Translations under genes and position numbers: made by a program
Shown here: piece by piece, positions 12,603 to 18,877 of the stretch
Layout: each line of letters begins with the position of its first letter
How positions within the stretch are numbered: the stretch's first letter is position 1
The notes under the pieces: generated by a model
What the model saw: the letters and a program-made list of their open reading frames with translations, nothing else
Database searches by the model: none
Told to the model about the DNA's origin: nothing
Virus record (IMG/VR): IMGVR_UViG_3300025308_000347
Coordinates: 1-23,259 of that record
Source: a virus
Strand: one strand, 5' to 3'
DNA: 23,259 nucleotides

Positions 12603-14603
12603 TTACCGGTCGACCCGCGCCGCACCGCCGTACAGCACGATGCTGGTGATGCCGGCCTTGAGCGGGCTCGGGGTGTGCAGGAACATGAACTGGTCGCCAT
12701 AGGCTTCCTTCTTGCCGGTGAAGCGGCCGTTGGAATCCTTCTGGTCCTGCAATTGGCCCATGGTCCATGCCTTGGCCATGCGGTAGCGGGTGAGCCCGCG
12801 CTCGCCGATCAGCACGCGGGTGTCGCCCATCGCCAGGCCGGGGGCGTAGCCCTTGTAGTTCGCCACGCCCTTGACCACGCCCAGGTTGCCCATGCTGTCG
12901 AGGTTCGTGCCGTTCCGGGCGCCGGACTCGATGAAGGCTTGCGCCTGCTCGATGGTGGTCATCACCGTGCCCGACATCAGGCCGAAGTTGCAGGCATGGA
13001 AGCGCTGATCCTCGATCACCGATTTGCGCAGGCCGTAGCGGTACAGAAAGGTGTTCCAGAACAGATCGGTGGCCACTGAGCCCTGGTCGGTGTCGAACTT
13101 GTACACGTTGGTGGTGTAGCTGTAGGACAACACAATGGCATGCGTGTTGGTCGGCGCGACCGCGGCGCCCAGCTCGCTGACGAAGCTGACCTCGCCCAGG
13201 TTGTAGTCGATCGAGTAGTACAGTCCGCCGGCCTGCGTGCCGGTGCCGTCGTACTCGCTGATCGTCACGGCGTTGCTCTTGACCACCACCGGGTAGAGCG
13301 TGCTGCCGACCTGGCTGCCCTGCATGTCGTAGATCTTCTTCGGCCGCACGATCGGGAAGCTGGTCGAGCAGAAGATGGTCTTGGTGCCGTCGGCCGTGGC
13401 CGTGGCTTCGTTGGTCACGGCGGTGACGGCGTACTGGTCGGAGGCGTCGAGCTGCTCGTTGAAGATCAGGCGCTCGGTGTCTTCGCCGACGATGCGGATG
13501 GCGTTGCGGGCGTTTTCGCCGAGTACGTCCCAGTTGAGCTGGCCGTTGCTGGTGAGGTAGCGCAGTTCGTCGCTGACTTCGAAGGCCAGCTTCTGCGGCA
13601 CGATGTAGGCCGTGTCCATCGCCTGCTTGACGCCGGCGCGGGCGATCGCCTGGCCTTCGTACTTGCGGGTGCTGTCGCGGCTGCCGGCGGTGGTGTCACG
13701 GTAGCTGTAGGGGATCTGGTGCGTGGCGGAGAACGGCGCGGTACCGGAATCGACGAACTGCATGCCGACCAGGCCATACAGCGCCTCGCGGATCACGGTG
13801 CGCTCGAAAGTGGCCGGTACCGAGACATCCGAGACCAGGCCGTCGCCGCCGGCGAGCATGATGTGCTCGCGGTGCAGGCGGTGCCCGTGCTCGGCGTCGA
13901 AGGCCGCCAGCACTTGCTCGGCCAGCACCCGATTGGGTTCCTGCAGCGCGCCGTTGGTGGCGCGAAAGCGTATGGCGTCGCTGCGGCCGGTGATGCCGAG
14001 GCGGCGGTCTGCGGCTTCCTGCAGCGCCTTGACCTCGTTGCCGGAATCGACGCTGATGTGCGCGTTGCCGGCGAACTGAAAGCCCATGCCGGAGAGCTTG
14101 CGCGCGGCCTGCAGGCGGTTGCCCATGCTGATCTGCGAGGCAGCGAGCTTACCCACCTGCTCGGGCGTCATGTCGGCGGTGACCAGATCGGCGACGGACT
14201 CGGTGAGTTCCTTGCGCAGGGTGTCGTCGAAGTCCTTGACGGCGGTGATCGTGTCGGTGAGCAGCTTGATGTTGGCGGCGCGACTGGTTTCAGCGGCGGT
14301 GCGTTCATCGTGCAGGCGCTTGGCTTCGGCGTGCATCAACTGGCGCACGTCGTCTTCGGATAGCGTCTTGCCGGGGGCGACAGCGGGTAGCTTTATGTCG
14401 AGCGTCACCACCTGGCTGCCGATCTGCGCGGCGAGCTGTTTGCCGGATTCTTCGAAGGAGGCGATCAGCAGCTTGGCCTGCGCTTCGTCGGTGACGGATT
14501 CCAGCGCCTTGGTGGCGGCGCCGGCGAGAGCTGCAATGACGGGCTCGGCCAGCTTGAAGCTGCCGAGGGCGGCGGTCAGGGCCGCAATGAGAGTTTTCCA
14601 CAT
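12603..14603 (-). CDS. Nested scaffold-capsid product from internal in-frame start
   Basis: Inside the fusion, Met191 (MWKTLIAALTAALGSFKLAE) has a full AGGAGG eight bases upstream. Translation from there would give a 666-residue scaffold plus capsid protein without the protease, similar in principle to lambda C/Nu3 and Mu I/Z, where the scaffold starts inside the protease gene in the same frame. Here the nested product also contains the whole capsid. The site is stronger than that of the full-length start, so the nested form may be the main capsid precursor and the full-length form a minor protease-bearing one. Confidence 0.68.
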   Translation of the reverse strand: MWKTLIAALTAALGSFKLAEPVIAALAGAATKALESVTDEAQAKLLIASFEESGKQLAAQIGSQVVTLDIKLPAVAPGKTLSEDDVRQLMHAEAKRLHDERTAAETSRAANIKLLTDTITAVKDFDDTLRKELTESVADLVTADMTPEQVGKLAASQISMGNRLQAARKLSGMGFQFAGNAHISVDSGNEVKALQEAADRRLGITGRSDAIRFRATNGALQEPNRVLAEQVLAAFDAEHGHRLHREHIMLAGGDGLVSDVSVPATFERTVIREALYGLVGMQFVDSGTAPFSATHQIPYSYRDTTAGSRDSTRKYEGQAIARAGVKQAMDTAYIVPQKLAFEVSDELRYLTSNGQLNWDVLGENARNAIRIVGEDTERLIFNEQLDASDQYAVTAVTNEATATADGTKTIFCSTSFPIVRPKKIYDMQGSQVGSTLYPVVVKSNAVTISEYDGTGTQAGGLYYSIDYNLGEVSFVSELGAAVAPTNTHAIVLSYSYTTNVYKFDTDQGSVATDLFWNTFLYRYGLRKSVIEDQRFHACNFGLMSGTVMTTIEQAQAFIESGARNGTNLDSMGNLGVVKGVANYKGYAPGLAMGDTRVLIGERGLTRYRMAKAWTMGQLQDQKDSNGRFTGKKEAYGDQFMFLHTPSPLKAGITSIVLYGGAARVDR

Positions 14604-15173
14604 GGTAGTTACCTCCTGGGTTAATTCGGAAAGAAGCGTGGGGTGCACGAAGGTCGGCATGTCGCCGGAGGCTTCGGACAACTGAATCGGATCGAGTTTC
14701 TTGATGCAGGGCCGAATCACCAGGCCCGCGCCCAGCAGCACCGGGCCGTGTTTCTTGCCGGCCTCGTTGTCCTGCCAGTTCTCGTGATACTCGGCGCTGA
14801 GATAGCGGAAACCCTTCTCGCGGATGGCTGTCAGCCCGAGGGCCGTCCATTCGACCAGCGCACGCAACCGGTCACCGTCAGCGGAGAGTTTGAGAATCTT
14901 CCCGGCGGCGCCGCCGCTGGGGTTGTGGGCGACGTCGATGAACACGTCCTGGCCGAAGGTGCGCGCGTCGAAATTCGCCACCATCGAAAGCAGCATCGCC
15001 TTGGTGATGTCGAACTTGCCGTAGCGCGGATCGGAGAAGCTGCCAGTGCGGGTTACCGTCACCCAGCTCGTGGTCGCGCCTTCCTCCAGATTCACATGAA
15101 GGCCGGTGAGCGCACGCAGCACACCGGAATATTGCGCATCGAGTCGAATGGTCCTGGGCCTGCCCTGATTCAT
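12603..15173 (-). CDS. Protease - scaffold - major capsid fusion protein
   Basis: An 856-residue polypeptide combining three normally separate head functions. Residues ~25-170 match the Mu gpI-like protease family: QDVFIDVAHNPSGGAAGKIL with His83, the LVEWTALGLTAIREKGFRYLSAEY signature, and the closing LGAGLVIRPCIKKLDP. Residues ~191-390 are helical with coiled-coil stretches and resemble a scaffold or delta domain. From ~395 a major capsid protein follows (AEVSDEL-type helix, RHACNFGL region, ending SIVLYGGAARVDR). The chosen ATG has GAGGTG six bases upstream; an upstream in-frame ATG at 15236 adds 21 basic residues and has no such site. The protease presumably cuts itself and the scaffold away after assembly. 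An internal start is described separately. Confidence 0.88.
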   Translation of the reverse strand: MNQGRPRTIRLDAQYSGVLRALTGLHVNLEEGATTSWVTVTRTGSFSDPRYGKFDITKAMLLSMVANFDARTFGQDVFIDVAHNPSGGAAGKILKLSADGDRLRALVEWTALGLTAIREKGFRYLSAEYHENWQDNEAGKKHGPVLLGAGLVIRPCIKKLDPIQLSEASGDMPTFVHPTLLSELTQEVTTMWKTLIAALTAALGSFKLAEPVIAALAGAATKALESVTDEAQAKLLIASFEESGKQLAAQIGSQVVTLDIKLPAVAPGKTLSEDDVRQLMHAEAKRLHDERTAAETSRAANIKLLTDTITAVKDFDDTLRKELTESVADLVTADMTPEQVGKLAASQISMGNRLQAARKLSGMGFQFAGNAHISVDSGNEVKALQEAADRRLGITGRSDAIRFRATNGALQEPNRVLAEQVLAAFDAEHGHRLHREHIMLAGGDGLVSDVSVPATFERTVIREALYGLVGMQFVDSGTAPFSATHQIPYSYRDTTAGSRDSTRKYEGQAIARAGVKQAMDTAYIVPQKLAFEVSDELRYLTSNGQLNWDVLGENARNAIRIVGEDTERLIFNEQLDASDQYAVTAVTNEATATADGTKTIFCSTSFPIVRPKKIYDMQGSQVGSTLYPVVVKSNAVTISEYDGTGTQAGGLYYSIDYNLGEVSFVSELGAAVAPTNTHAIVLSYSYTTNVYKFDTDQGSVATDLFWNTFLYRYGLRKSVIEDQRFHACNFGLMSGTVMTTIEQAQAFIESGARNGTNLDSMGNLGVVKGVANYKGYAPGLAMGDTRVLIGERGLTRYRMAKAWTMGQLQDQKDSNGRFTGKKEAYGDQFMFLHTPSPLKAGITSIVLYGGAARVDR
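14612..14617 (-). promoter_or_regulatory. Internal AGGAGG ribosome binding site
   Basis: A perfect anti-16S complement lying within the codons for Gln-Glu-Val, eight bases before the in-frame ATG at 14603-14601. Such a site inside coding sequence in the right place is unlikely by chance and supports internal initiation of the scaffold-capsid product. Confidence 0.75.
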
Positions 15174-15189
15174 AGCCACCTCGCGAAAT

Positions 15190-15226
15190 GCGCGGCGGGC
15201 TCGGGAGCGAACCAATCCCGCCGCGC
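15190..15226 (-). promoter_or_regulatory. 10-bp GC hairpin in the leader of the protease-capsid gene
   Basis: GCGCGGCGGG (15190-15199) and CCCGCCGCGC (15217-15226) are exact inverted repeats, separated by 17 bases. The structure ends 16 bases before the ATG and leaves the GAGGTG site free. There is no T-run, so it is not a terminator. It could protect the capsid transcript from decay, or hold the leader open for ribosomes. Confidence 0.65.
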
Positions 15227-15268
15227 GATGACCCACTGCGGATCACGCGACGAGTTTCAGGGGGATGC

Positions 15269-15307: not shown

Positions 15308-15634
15308 CTAATTCACGACGTATTGATCGAGATCAGTATCGTCGGCGAGAGCATCAGGCCCGGCCGTCGGGTACGCCTGCTGCAGCTCAGCGTCGAGCTG
15401 CCAGGACTGTCCCAGGAGAACCGCCATCTCGGCAGGACTCCGTAGCGGATCCTTGATGTCGAACGGCGTCGGGTACGGGTGTCCATTGACGTGTCCGATC
15501 TGCAGCGCACGTTCGCACATGTTGCGCACAATCCCGGCGCCGGCGCCGCGAAGATCGCCGGACTCCGGATCCCACTCGAACGCCAGCTCGACGTCGTGCT
15601 GTGTCTGTGGCTGCAGGGTAAATTTACGGTACAT
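15308..15634 (-). CDS. Small acidic protein directly after the MuF-peptidase gene
   Basis: A 108-residue acidic protein (MYRKFTLQPQTQHDVELAFEWD). The first part is beta-rich with acidic residues; the second half has NGHPYPTPFDIKDPLRSPAEMAVLL and a Trp-containing helix (GQSWQLDAELQQAYP). The start overlaps the MuF stop by 11 bases, so the two are coupled. No family is recognised. It may be a structural accessory protein. As the gene directly behind a MuF protein with a peptidase-like domain, it is also a candidate inhibitor of that domain. A GTCGC/GCGAC hairpin starts just at its stop codon. Confidence 0.75.
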   Translation of the reverse strand: MYRKFTLQPQTQHDVELAFEWDPESGDLRGAGAGIVRNMCERALQIGHVNGHPYPTPFDIKDPLRSPAEMAVLLGQSWQLDAELQQAYPTAGPDALADDTDLDQYVVN

Positions 15635-17477
15635 AACGATACAGTGCTCCGATTACCAGATTGAACATTTCACGATCATCCTTCAGCAGTTTTTCCAGGG
15701 TGCCCGGGTTGCCGCCCAGCACGCTTTCGAATGCCATGGTTAGGACTTCCATAGCGCCGTGCTTGCCGAGATACCCTGTCGATCGGGAGTAGATCTTGCC
15801 CTGGTAGGGGTTGATGTATTTGTCCTCCCTGGCTACTTCATTACGCCCATACGAGATTCCCGTCAAGCTGCGCAGGCTCTTGACCGGGTCGCCGGCTGTG
15901 CGGCGATGGTGAAGCTCCTGGAACAAATCGTCCAGATCGGGCAGGGCATGCTGCAGGCGATGGGCGTATTCATGCACGGCCGTGGTGTACCGGCCGGCAA
16001 CGATCATGCCGTCATTGCCATCCGCGGTGAAGCTGAAGCCCTTGTAATGGATCCGCTGTCCTGCCTTGGTTCCCGGCAGCGTTGACTGCCAGCCGCGGCC
16101 GGCCCCACCCTTGGCATAGAGCGGGCCGAAGGCGTCTGCGGCCTTGGTCCAGTCGTCCGGGAAAAGCCTGGATACGTTCCGCACCAGGTCGGCCCCGCGC
16201 CCGCCGCCGCGAACCTTTGCCTCGGCCGCTGTGGAGCGCACCAGGTTCAGATCCTTGAACAGCACCTCGGGCAGCCTGGCGGCCGTGTCGCCCATCGCCT
16301 GCGCTTTGGCGAGCAGCTCGTGGCCTTTGTCGGCCCCGAAGCCGATCAGCCCATCGAGGTCCAGCGGCCCCTTGGGTGGCGGTCGCGGCGGTGCCTTCGG
16401 TTTGGGTGCTACATAGCCGATGCGCTTTTGCACGGCCCGCCACGGTGCCCGGATCATGCCCTGGGTGAGCTTACCGGCGGCGAAGACTTCAGCTTTGCCC
16501 TTCCCTAGTACGCCCTGCCGCTGTGCCGGCGTGAGCCGTGCCAGGGCCTGCAGCGGGGTTTCCTTGCCAGCTTTGTCCTTGGCGCTGATCTCGTCCTTGA
16601 ATACGATTTCGACGAAGCTAAGGGTGTTCGGATGCGCCGGCCATGGGGTTTTTTCGCGCGAGGGATAGACTCCGGCTCCCAGTCCATGAAGGTTCTGCGT
16701 TGAGAGCAGGTCGCAGATATCAGCCTTCGGATGCGCCGGCGACAGAAGAAAGCGCCAGCCACCGAAATCAGGATGGTCTTCGCCGCCCATCATGTAGGCC
16801 TCGCCGTGGGCACGGTTGATCTCGGTGCGCATCAAGCGCATGGCGTTGTCCAGGGCGCTACCCTCACCCGTCAGCAGCGGATCCGTGGCGCCCCTGATCA
16901 GCTTGCGGGTGGCCGACGACTGCATGCGGTCCTGGATGTCGATAGGTACCGGGTCGCCGCGGGAAAGGAATTCCCGTGCCGCCTGGGCGGCGCTCTGCCC
17001 CTGAATGATCGCGCTCTCAATCGCATTGACCACAGCGTCGCGTGCGCCGCGGTCAATGCGCCAGATCCGGTCGGAGAGCTGCAGACCGTCGGCGGCCACG
17101 AAGTTGCGCACGAAGCGCAGGGCGTCCTCGGAAACCCGCATCGAGTCCAGGCTGGAGACCACGGCACCGGTATCCATCACCGAGCCCAGCACCGGTCGCG
17201 CGCCGTAATCTGCCGCCTTGGCCATCGCCTCGTTCAGCAACGCGTCACGCTCGGTGGTCAGGCGCTGCATGATCCCCTGCACCTGACCGAGCAGCTGCTG
17301 CAGCTCCTGCAGCGCCAGATTATCGTCAGGGCCGCTGTGGTTTCGGATCCGCGTGGCGATTTCGCCGGCCTGGGTCTTGTAAAGGTCGATCAGGGCCTGC
17401 TGCGTCTCGGCGTCGAGCTTCTCGATGGCTCGCTGCCCGATCAGCGTGGCACGCTTGATCTGGGCGCGGGTTTTCAT
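15624..17477 (-). CDS. MuF-family head morphogenesis protein with C-terminal HExxH peptidase-like domain
   Basis: A 617-residue minor head protein. The MuF core lies at about 205-295: LMRTEINRAHGEAYMMGGE, WRFLLSPAHPKADICDLL, and PWPAHPNT. A proline-rich linker (KPKAPPRPPPKGP, 359-371) leads to an extra C-terminal part. There, ~430-617 contains TTAVHEYAHRLQH, so His502, Glu503 and His506 form a zinc-peptidase HExxH site; Glu577 in KHGAMEVLTMAFE is the likely third ligand, with Glu584 as the alternative. MuF proteins carried in the virion are often fused to toxin-like enzyme domains in temperate phages, so this one may be injected with the DNA. It may instead process virion proteins. Portal stop and this start overlap as ATGA. 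Confidence 0.9.
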   Translation of the reverse strand: MKTRAQIKRATLIGQRAIEKLDAETQQALIDLYKTQAGEIATRIRNHSGPDDNLALQELQQLLGQVQGIMQRLTTERDALLNEAMAKAADYGARPVLGSVMDTGAVVSSLDSMRVSEDALRFVRNFVAADGLQLSDRIWRIDRGARDAVVNAIESAIIQGQSAAQAAREFLSRGDPVPIDIQDRMQSSATRKLIRGATDPLLTGEGSALDNAMRLMRTEINRAHGEAYMMGGEDHPDFGGWRFLLSPAHPKADICDLLSTQNLHGLGAGVYPSREKTPWPAHPNTLSFVEIVFKDEISAKDKAGKETPLQALARLTPAQRQGVLGKGKAEVFAAGKLTQGMIRAPWRAVQKRIGYVAPKPKAPPRPPPKGPLDLDGLIGFGADKGHELLAKAQAMGDTAARLPEVLFKDLNLVRSTAAEAKVRGGGRGADLVRNVSRLFPDDWTKAADAFGPLYAKGGAGRGWQSTLPGTKAGQRIHYKGFSFTADGNDGMIVAGRYTTAVHEYAHRLQHALPDLDDLFQELHHRRTAGDPVKSLRSLTGISYGRNEVAREDKYINPYQGKIYSRSTGYLGKHGAMEVLTMAFESVLGGNPGTLEKLLKDDREMFNLVIGALYRYVP

Positions 17478-18877
17478 TCGTCGTCAACCGCCCAGTGCTC
17501 GGAGAGCCTGTTCGAATGGGTAGCGCTGGTAGCCGACTCGCCTTTGGGGGCGTTACCCGGGGTGACCTTGATCCCCGGCGCCGGCCTCCCGGGTGCGCCG
17601 ATCGCCGCTGGGTCCGGGTATGGGTTGCCGTCCTTGGCTTCCTGGTCGAGCCGGGCGCGGATGTCCTGCGGGTTGTAGCCCATCTCCTCCCAGATCAAGC
17701 CTCGCGGCATACCCATGGCTTGCCACTTGAGCGCGCGGTCGGTGGTCTGGTTCGGCGTTTCGGTGCGGCGCTCGGCGAACTTGACCCAGTAGTCCTCGGC
17801 ATCCGGATTGATTCCCTTGAGCAGCAGATGCAGACGGAAGCCCTGGTCGTAGCCGAAGGCCAGCGTGTCCTGCAGGCTGTCCACTTCTTCGTAGTAGTCG
17901 CGCTTCAAGTCTTCCAGGATGTCGCGTGCGGCGTCGCCGGCATAGCCCATCAAAGCCTTGGGCAACGGCGATCCGGCGAAGAAGGTTTCCAGGAGATGCA
18001 CCACGTCGCCGATCTGGTCCAGGTTGGCGTCGCCCTGCACGGCGGTGACGCTGCCCTTGCGGTTCAGAAAATAGTCGGTGGTGATTTGCGTCTGATCGCG
18101 TTCGACGGAGGCACGATAGGCGTCGAGCGTTGCCTGGTCTGCTCCCTCCAGCACATGGGCTGTGCGCAGCGGAGCGCGCTGGCGGCGCCGGATGACCAGG
18201 TCTTCTTCGGTCATTCGCAGCTTCTTCCAGGTCTCGCGCGTGGCGTCGAGGAAGGGGCGGCCGAGCGATCCCATGTCGTCGAAGCTGTCAGGGTCGAAGC
18301 GCGCCATGGTGAGCTGGTAGAGGGCGAAAGCGGCCAGCTCGCGGCCCTGCACCGGATCGAACTGCACATAGGCGCGACGCGGATCCTTGAACTGGCCGTT
18401 GGTCGCCACCTGCGGGATGATGGTCTCGCTGGGCATGCGCACGGCAGCAACGACGTTGCTGCCGTCGTCGAGCACCCACTGCAGGCAGGCGGCGCCTTCC
18501 ATCACCAGGCCGCGGGCGTCGGAGCGCAGCTTTTCGGCACGCGTGAGCTGCAGGCGGCGGGCGTAGTCTTCCCATTCGCGGCGCAGGGTATCGGACGGCG
18601 TGATCTGGGAAAACACCAGGCCGCCCTTGACCACGTCGCGCGCCACCCGGGCATGGATGCGCTTGACCCGGCCGTCGCGGCGATCCATGTCGCGAATATC
18701 GAGGATGGCCTGGCGCTGCGCCGGATCTACCCAGAGCAGTCGGTACAGGTAGTCCATCGAAGCTTCCGGTGTAGCCCGGCTACCTCGTTCGAAGCCGGAG
18801 GACTCGCCAGGCCACAGCGCCCGCGCCCTGGCGCCGGCGACGCGCGCCATGGACTTGATGTCGTCAATGATGCCCAT
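17474..18877 (-). CDS. Portal protein
   Basis: A 467-residue portal, the dodecameric DNA entry ring at the capsid vertex. Family features include the N-terminal DYLYRLLWVDPAQRQAIL, AILDIRDMDRRDGRVKRI, a LQWVLDDGSNVVAAVRMP strand pair, PLRTAHVLEGADQATLDAYR and, at ~305-320, FFAGSPLPKALMGYAGDAAR, which precedes the helical stem and DNA-contacting part. The C-terminus is Pro/Gly-rich and disordered (PAAIGAPGRPAPGIKVTPGN). Length is normal. GAGG lies eight bases before the ATG; the start overlaps the previous gene by 14 bases. Position between terminase and MuF is standard. Confidence 0.93.
   Translation of the reverse strand: MGIIDDIKSMARVAGARARALWPGESSGFERGSRATPEASMDYLYRLLWVDPAQRQAILDIRDMDRRDGRVKRIHARVARDVVKGGLVFSQITPSDTLRREWEDYARRLQLTRAEKLRSDARGLVMEGAACLQWVLDDGSNVVAAVRMPSETIIPQVATNGQFKDPRRAYVQFDPVQGRELAAFALYQLTMARFDPDSFDDMGSLGRPFLDATRETWKKLRMTEEDLVIRRRQRAPLRTAHVLEGADQATLDAYRASVERDQTQITTDYFLNRKGSVTAVQGDANLDQIGDVVHLLETFFAGSPLPKALMGYAGDAARDILEDLKRDYYEEVDSLQDTLAFGYDQGFRLHLLLKGINPDAEDYWVKFAERRTETPNQTTDRALKWQAMGMPRGLIWEEMGYNPQDIRARLDQEAKDGNPYPDPAAIGAPGRPAPGIKVTPGNAPKGESATSATHSNRLSEHWAVDDE

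Follow-up and report, generated by a model that had tools for sequence, protein, structure and literature searches.

A zincin-type tail on a MuF-type phage head protein and its small partner gene, a candidate effector-inhibitor cassette in a head module

The stretch of DNA analysed here, hereafter called the window, is the 23,259-nucleotide virus record IMGVR_UViG_3300025308_000347 of IMG/VR (positions 1 to 23,259), in which the gene for a MuF-type head protein is followed at once by a small gene. All features of the window described below lie on the minus strand. According to the list of open reading frames (ORFs), the MuF gene (15624-17477) encodes 617 amino acids and the small gene (15308-15634) encodes 108 amino acids; the two overlap by 11 bases (15624-15634) in different frames. 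The MuF protein is made up of a head-protein core (residues 1-300; 16578-17477) that adjoins a portal-type gene, a proline-rich linker (residues 359-371, KPKAPPRPPPKGP; 16365-16403) and a C-terminal tail domain (residues 420-617; 15627-16220). Within the tail, the zinc-binding and catalytic motif HEYAH occupies residues 502-506 (15960-15974), and Glu577, the putative third zinc ligand, lies at 15747-15749 within the stretch AMEVLTM (residues 575-581). The core matched phrog_1657 (E 5e-35, residues 13-291) and other head-morphogenesis families of the PHROG collection. Pfam returned no match to core or tail at E values up to 1, and its MuF model, PF04233, did not match the protein. The small protein has a calculated isoelectric point (pI) of 4.4 and a charge of about -10. 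The first-pass annotation of the window had described both reading frames with their overlap, the positions of the motif and the linker, and an acidic product of the second gene, and these descriptions were borne out; its choice of Glu577 as the likely third zinc ligand agrees with the alignment described next.

Judged by its sequence and by models of its homologues, the tail is a zincin-type domain with an intact catalytic set, in which Glu577 would bind zinc. Residues of about 486-612 match three PHROG families at their C-terminal ends, namely phrog_19443 (minor head protein, E 8e-11), phrog_33618 and phrog_8561, and a fourth, phrog_20397, internally. Scans of virus contigs and bacterial genomes yielded 207 zincin ORFs in 178 loci, of which 120 were non-redundant at 80%. 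In a hidden Markov model (HMM) alignment of the zincin segments of the loci then collected (208 rows, redundant rows included), the columns of His502, Glu503, His506 and Glu577 were invariant in 202, 202, 203 and 205 rows, respectively, the remaining rows being gaps. The part shared with distant relatives covers residues of about 484-613 (15639-16028), residues 420-483 are conserved within the window's own group, and the HExxH motif, the downstream Glu, an Arg-Thr pair and a YxGKxY stretch are common to eight aligned segments. The same tail ends head-module proteins of Flavobacterium, Bacillus and Streptococcus phages and also of Planktothrix phage PaV-LD (phage-record search). The N-terminal parts of 86 zincin-bearing proteins, the window protein being one of them, were scanned as well; Pfam Phage_Mu_F (PF04233) was found in 48 and phrog_595 in 53, and other head families were also present.

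Some members of this collection are arranged differently. In the alignment of the 86 N-terminal parts (A13), two proteins match 2'-5' RNA ligase, two the anti-CBASS protein Acb1, two a portal and one an intein domain, which indicates that other enzymes ride on some zincin-bearing proteins. Planktothrix phage PaV-LD and its relatives (L011, L042 and L044; numbers with L refer to loci and those with G to genomes) have two tandem zincin genes and then a small gene ending in DEDIVY. In Bacillus phage vB_BboS-125 (L009, 2357-4396), a gene annotated as an NAD(+)-arginine ADP-ribosyltransferase ends in the same zincin and is followed by an unannotated small frame ending in EGAIV.

For the fold, two chains were modelled in which a zincin runs on into its partner across the natural in-frame stop: L030, which belongs to the window's partner family, and L149, which belongs to another. 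The window's own domain, 42% identical to L030 over that region, entered the L030 model only as one row of the alignment. This model reached a mean predicted local distance difference test (pLDDT) score of 77.9 and a predicted template modelling score (pTM) of 0.60, with residues 139-200 weak (pLDDT about 49-67); the corresponding values for L149 were 82.5 and 0.68, with the zincin part mostly at 88-97. As the first-pass annotation had suspected, the predicted fold of these two homologues is that of a zincin over the whole domain. The best structural match of the L030 zincin was PPEP-1/Zmp1 (2n6j; Z 8.6, 141 residues, 3.1 A), although a Z near 8 can mean merely a common arrangement, and that of L149 was PPEP-3 (9g0j; Z 10.1, 145 residues, 3.4 A). 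The lethal-factor catalytic domain came next in both cases (Z 7.7 for L030 and 9.6 for L149), and the first rows outside the group of Pro-Pro endopeptidases (PPEPs) and lethal factor appeared in the L149 comparison at Z 6.8. Identity to these proteins in the structural alignments was about 8-14%. When the L149 model was compared with viral models, the best matches were phage proteins, several of them named head morphogenesis proteins, and seven matches had an E of 0.001 or better. Among solved structures, a search by sequence gave only antibody chains (E 0.3 or worse). Since neither Pfam nor the solved structures show a detectable sequence relationship, the tail is described here as sharing the fold of the Pro-Pro endopeptidases and lethal factor and is not filed as a member of their group. 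The overall zincin fold and the HExxH motif with a downstream Glu are held in common with PPEP-1, PPEP-2, PPEP-3 and the lethal-factor catalytic domain, by fold matches only; unlike these, the present domain is fused to a phage head protein and has no Pfam match.

The 108-amino-acid downstream gene is, as judged from the distribution of its homologues, a specific genetic partner of the zincin tail, and the two are present or absent as a unit. The window's lineage provided 66 non-redundant MuF genes with complete ends (81 cores trimmed to 67 at 90%, minus one open-ended). Ten of them carry the zincin, 22 another tail of at least 150 residues and 34 fewer than 150 residues after the core; the window protein has 317 residues after the core model. 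An HMM of the partner family matched at all 10 zincin-tailed loci and at none of the 56 others (0 of 34 short and 0 of 22 with other tails), two of the 56, one short-tailed and one other-tailed, having fewer than 300 bases available downstream. The model (A14) was built from 18 proteins. Seven of the 10 zincin MuF loci are represented among these, directly or through the same contig, and three are independent. The two checks that could have refuted the first-pass annotation, on a fold with a zinc site and on whether the downstream gene is equally frequent beside MuF proteins lacking the domain, both spoke for its idea. A count that uses no model found an acidic, coupled small ORF after 10 of 10 zincin, 14 of 21 other-tailed and 3 of 33 short MuF genes among those that could be assessed. 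In three relatives (L003, L004 and L005; 54-55% identical), tail and partner occur together and their genes again overlap by 11 bases. Of 399 genomes from a single order, 12 had the partner, 11 the zincin and 10 both, adjacent (the zincin scan had already revealed four of these pairs, and one of the pairs is broken); such genome searches score only the best first-look candidates per genome, for example 12, and misses are possible.

In the wider collection, 109 C-terminal zincin genes were non-redundant and had sufficient sequence, and a small coupled ORF follows 97 of them. This set was obtained by trimming the 207 ORFs to 120 at 80% and removing two that were 3'-incomplete, six with an internal zincin and three that were cut off, the 12 without a small ORF then being set apart. 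The rule by which partners were chosen favours coupled ORFs of low pI, so that counts of acidity lean upward, and ignores the C-terminus; a few of the chosen ORFs (pI 8-12) are probably not genes. Pfam, NCBIfam and PADLOC returned no family for the window's tail or its partner, and four Pfam families that each matched one of 38 members at E 0.01-0.055 were taken as chance. Searched with the partner protein, the phage collection yielded nothing beyond short matches of E 1 or worse, and the partner relatives were therefore taken from virus contigs and genomes. A second weak partner match in L005 and L007 (E 0.002-0.004) fell inside the portal gene and was also taken as chance. The partner body in the L030 model is a confident small alpha/beta domain (pLDDT blocks 77-94).

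A close relative of the window, L006, lacks both components. The portal proteins of the two are 87% identical (464 columns), the MuF cores 77% and the protease/capsid genes 96% (576 amino acids), and the MuF protein of L006 ends at residue 353 and has no partner gene behind it. BLASTN homology between the two sequences ends at nucleotide 1058 of the MuF gene and restarts at nucleotide 2169, which is the partner's stop codon; the cassette of tail and partner gene (15310-16419 in the window) is missing as one unit. A candidate remnant of the partner gene's end in L006 amounted to 7 of 8 bases and was dropped as weak. As L006 keeps the portal, the MuF core and the capsid gene without tail and partner, head assembly does not seem to need the pair. 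The portal-type protein of L006 (3382-5253) is itself longer than that of the window, 623 against 467 amino acids, owing to an insert of about 155 residues near the C-terminus (starting with YDPNQPRDPGGEDGG) that is absent from the window's portal and has no Pfam match; in L006 the cargo may sit on the portal instead of the MuF protein.

On the sequences compared, the pair is an exchangeable effector-type cassette, in that the same core elsewhere bears other effector-like tails, most of them with a small gene of their own. The 22 other tails include further HExxH-type tails (L194, L206 and L233; L225 and L236; L243 and L255; L256), a JAB-like tail (L228 and relatives; Toxin-JAB1, E 0.025, below cut-off), a DUF6883 tail (L231 and L250; E 2e-27 and 1e-19) and a PBECR3 tail (L257; 6e-6, below its cut-off). 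A phosphoribosyltransferase (PRTase)-like tail is carried by the MuF proteins of L201 and L217, also of the window's lineage (Pribosyltran, E 0.003 for L201, below cut-off), with no small ORF by the partner rule, and the rest are unassigned. The Pfam labels come from a run on 10 of the 22 tails, and the others were labelled from a reading of their sequences. Exchange of tails on related cores is the pattern described for MuF polymorphic toxins in the accessible part of Jamet et al. 2017 (PMC5576092).

The partners of the zincin tails sort into several families (of 22, 36 and smaller groups) that profile searches did not join, and a similar C-terminal ending recurs across them. Out of 97 partners, 49 end in Tyr, 46 end in hydrophobic-Tyr and 80 have a hydrophobic penultimate residue; the corresponding numbers for 296 control ORFs of up to 160 amino acids from the same loci are 9, 2 and 58, these controls being the longest non-overlapping plus-strand ORFs of 60-160 amino acids, which may include non-genes. 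In a smaller set, none of 32 small acidic control ORFs ends in hydrophobic-Tyr. The possibility that the final Tyr reflects a constraint on the DNA through overlap with the next gene was ruled out by the mixture of Tyr codons (TAT 30, TAC 19) and stops (TGA 21, TAA 20, TAG 8); the use of both Tyr codons and all three stops means that the constraint acts on the protein. Within the window's partner family, 11 of 22 members end in hydrophobic-Tyr and the penultimate residue is hydrophobic in 20; the window's own form of the hydrophobic motif is Val-Val-Asn-COOH (last three codons, 15311-15319). An ending conserved on diverging bodies suggests contact with something that is itself conserved, and the sequences suggest the catalytic region of the zincin as the obvious candidate.

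Members of the partner family also occur without the zincin. Matches in genomes lie beside a zincin in 13 places (one broken, and five known beforehand from the zincin scan), lack a zincin in the available sequence in nine places, including G621 with only about 0.5 kb upstream, and lie at a contig edge in two. Among the zincin-free copies, that of G383 is beside the type I restriction-modification genes HsdM/S/R, that of G832 neighbours a SRAP gene and lies about 2 kb from a McrBC gene, and that of G887 neighbours the same kind of SRAP gene with no McrBC among the neighbours listed, Pfam having been run on G832 only. The copy in G063 lies in a small element with an integrase, and some of the remaining ones lie near a contig end. 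Four keep the tail ending: EVIY (G063), SVLY (G832), PVVY (G887) and DIVF (G676). By sequence and setting, some of the zincin-free copies fit stand-alone immunity genes. If they are protective, they would represent a simple defence against a protein brought in with phage DNA.

Taken with the models, these sequence comparisons argue that the zincin-tailed MuF protein is probably a protease effector delivered with the DNA and that the partner is probably its inhibitor. MuF proteins as known so far would lead one to expect a few copies inside the capsid that pass into the cell together with the DNA; gp44, the MuF protein of phage 80alpha, has been termed an ejection protein (PMC12323379). The injected protease would then cut one or a few host proteins, and the translationally coupled acidic partner would act as an immunity protein that silences the protease in the producing cell or lysogen. 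Self-cleavage could serve as a release step, given the PPEP-like fold and the PPRPPP linker. More speculatively, the hydrophobic, often Tyr-COOH end of the partner may contact the conserved catalytic region, perhaps as a product-like plug in the active-site cleft. A more far-reaching form of this idea holds that the partners put a free C-terminus (hydrophobic-hydrophobic-Tyr-COOH) into the zincin cleft like an unreleased product, that one tail of this kind neutralises a whole superfamily of injected proteases, and that partner genes were taken up by bacteria and mobile elements, in some cases close to restriction systems, to serve as stand-alone protection; we regard it as unlikely in this full extent. 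The first-pass annotation had proposed an effector-inhibitor pair, and this proposal is supported by the zincin motif and fold type, the pairing of tail and partner, their joint absence in L006 and the exchange of the tail for other effector-like tails.

Several observations weigh against the interpretation as effector and inhibitor. Foldseek with the L030 model found no PDB match at E 0.001, the best being 0.025 to lethal factor followed by the PPEPs, and the qualification of Z values near 8 given above applies to that model. No small ORF was found by the partner rule behind 12 of the 109 zincin genes, some of which can be explained by the tandem zincin genes of L042 and the readable small frame of L009, and 25 of the 97 partners are not acidic (pI 5.5 or more). 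The window's own partner does not end in Tyr, the commonest form, and only 2 partners among the 10 zincin MuF loci of the window's closest lineage end in hydrophobic-Tyr. The partner's C-terminal tail is disordered in the L030 fusion model (pLDDT <50) and moderately confident in that of L149 (about 70-74), and docking, for which neither model supplied coordinates, was not seen. In two genomes, partner-family proteins lie directly behind an aminotransferase class-V (SufS-like) gene (G596 and G700; loci L302, 8732-9148, and L303, 312-632), which is not an immunity setting; no phage genes were recognised among the neighbours listed, Pfam having been run on G596/L302 only. Such housekeeping-type settings of zincin-free copies imply that the partner family is broader than immunity. 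Finally, this phage is at most a candidate temperate phage: none of the roughly ten window genes that were scanned was seen to encode an integrase. Relatives lie in bacterial contigs, for example L068 in a 578-kb Paucibacter contig.

One alternative, to which we give a minor but appreciable chance, is that the small protein is a substrate of the protease or an adaptor that targets it, its conserved C-terminus being a recognition or cleavage tag. It would suit the finding that the common feature is the extreme C-terminus, carried on bodies that profile searches did not join, and the partner-family proteins that occur without a zincin are what a more general adaptor might leave. A dedicated regulator, as the effector-inhibitor interpretation has it, is a better fit to the coupled genes and to a partner present at every zincin-tailed locus and at none of the others, and a free carboxyl end after Tyr would give an endopeptidase nothing to cut on the primed side.

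The first-pass annotation had itself named what is the main alternative, a virion-processing protease with a structural neighbour. On this view, the target of the zincin is either the MuF protein that carries it, perhaps cut at the proline-rich linker, or a head protein that is cleaved while the capsid is put together; the small protein would then assist it as a chaperone, a timer or a cofactor resembling a propeptide. The gene does lie in the head module, a PPEP-like fold stands beside a PPRPPPKGP linker where cutting would suit a Pro-Pro endopeptidase relative, and autoprocessing has been proposed for zincins of polyvalent phage proteins (PMC5512222). This alternative loses ground, since phages can do without the pair and members of the partner family are found beyond phage head modules: L006 keeps its head genes without tail and partner, 34 of the 66 lineage MuF genes have a short end after the core, and tails are swapped for unrelated enzyme-like domains. 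We consider a processing role improbable, though it keeps a small share of our confidence.

It is likewise doubtful that the injected protease is an anti-defence effector that destroys a host defence protein, with the partner protecting only the lysogen's or another element's own copy of the target, and hosts and mobile elements keeping partners as counter-measures. The zincin-free partners near type I restriction-modification genes (G383) and McrBC (G832) are in line with this, and Jamet et al. suggest that a MuF toxin of the peptidase kind may confer resistance to defence or influence lysogeny (PMC5576092). Restriction-gene neighbours were seen in only two genomes, however, and mobile genes cluster anyway. 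That the small gene is an unrelated chance neighbour is extremely improbable. Small ORFs are common in head modules, and the partner rule finds some small ORF after 17 of 33 short MuF genes, yet a homologous partner separates the zincin-tailed loci completely from the 56 others, is adjacent in 10 of the 11 zincin genomes among the 399 searched and is absent together with the tail in L006.

Metallopeptidase-tailed MuF proteins followed by small ORFs are a known class. Jamet et al. described MuF polymorphic toxins of temperate phages and, in the accessible part of their paper, list metallopeptidases among the C-terminal enzyme kinds (PMC5576092). The window agrees with that account in having a MuF-type head protein next to a portal, a C-terminal enzyme domain, a small downstream ORF and exchangeable tails, and differs in a core that the Pfam MuF model does not recognise. 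As far as the available text of that paper goes, the partner family and its C-terminal motif, a relative that lacks exactly this pair, and partner copies with no zincin beside them are additions of the present work, and the control of metallopeptidase MuF tails is not described; here, a defined partner family tracks the tail. The main text contains no word beginning with 'motif'. No description of the partner family, the shared C-terminal ending or the zincin-free partner copies appeared in the literature searches made, which covered open-licence papers only, and the common ending of zincin partners across divergent families is apparently new.

Two prophage-encoded polymorphic effectors with cognate immunity proteins offer a further comparison. 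IapK, the immunity protein of the MuF toxin Apk2, blocks the active site (PMC12226406), and Bsi blocks the activity of Bxa by binding (PMC11699363). The activities of Apk2, a pyrophosphokinase, and Bxa, an ADP-ribosyltransferase, were tested in those studies, whereas the enzyme here is a predicted zincin known from sequence and models. The zincins of polyvalent phage proteins resemble the present case as HExxH zincins fused to a phage virion protein, and their family of 12 clades was linked to lethal factor by profile comparison (PMC5512222). The accessible sections of that paper propose mainly processing roles and mention no small downstream partner, unlike the present locus with its small partner gene.

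Two flanking genes give the setting of the pair. The portal-type gene upstream (17474-18877) was recognised by Portal_T4 (E 1e-7). The gene downstream (12603-15236) matched PF10123 (E 3e-11), phrog_328 and phrog_22848 and is probably the capsid gene; it is a single ORF of 877 amino acids in which a Mu-I-like protease domain (residues 74-318) is joined to a phrog_22848-like C-terminal part, apparently a fusion of prohead protease and capsid protein.

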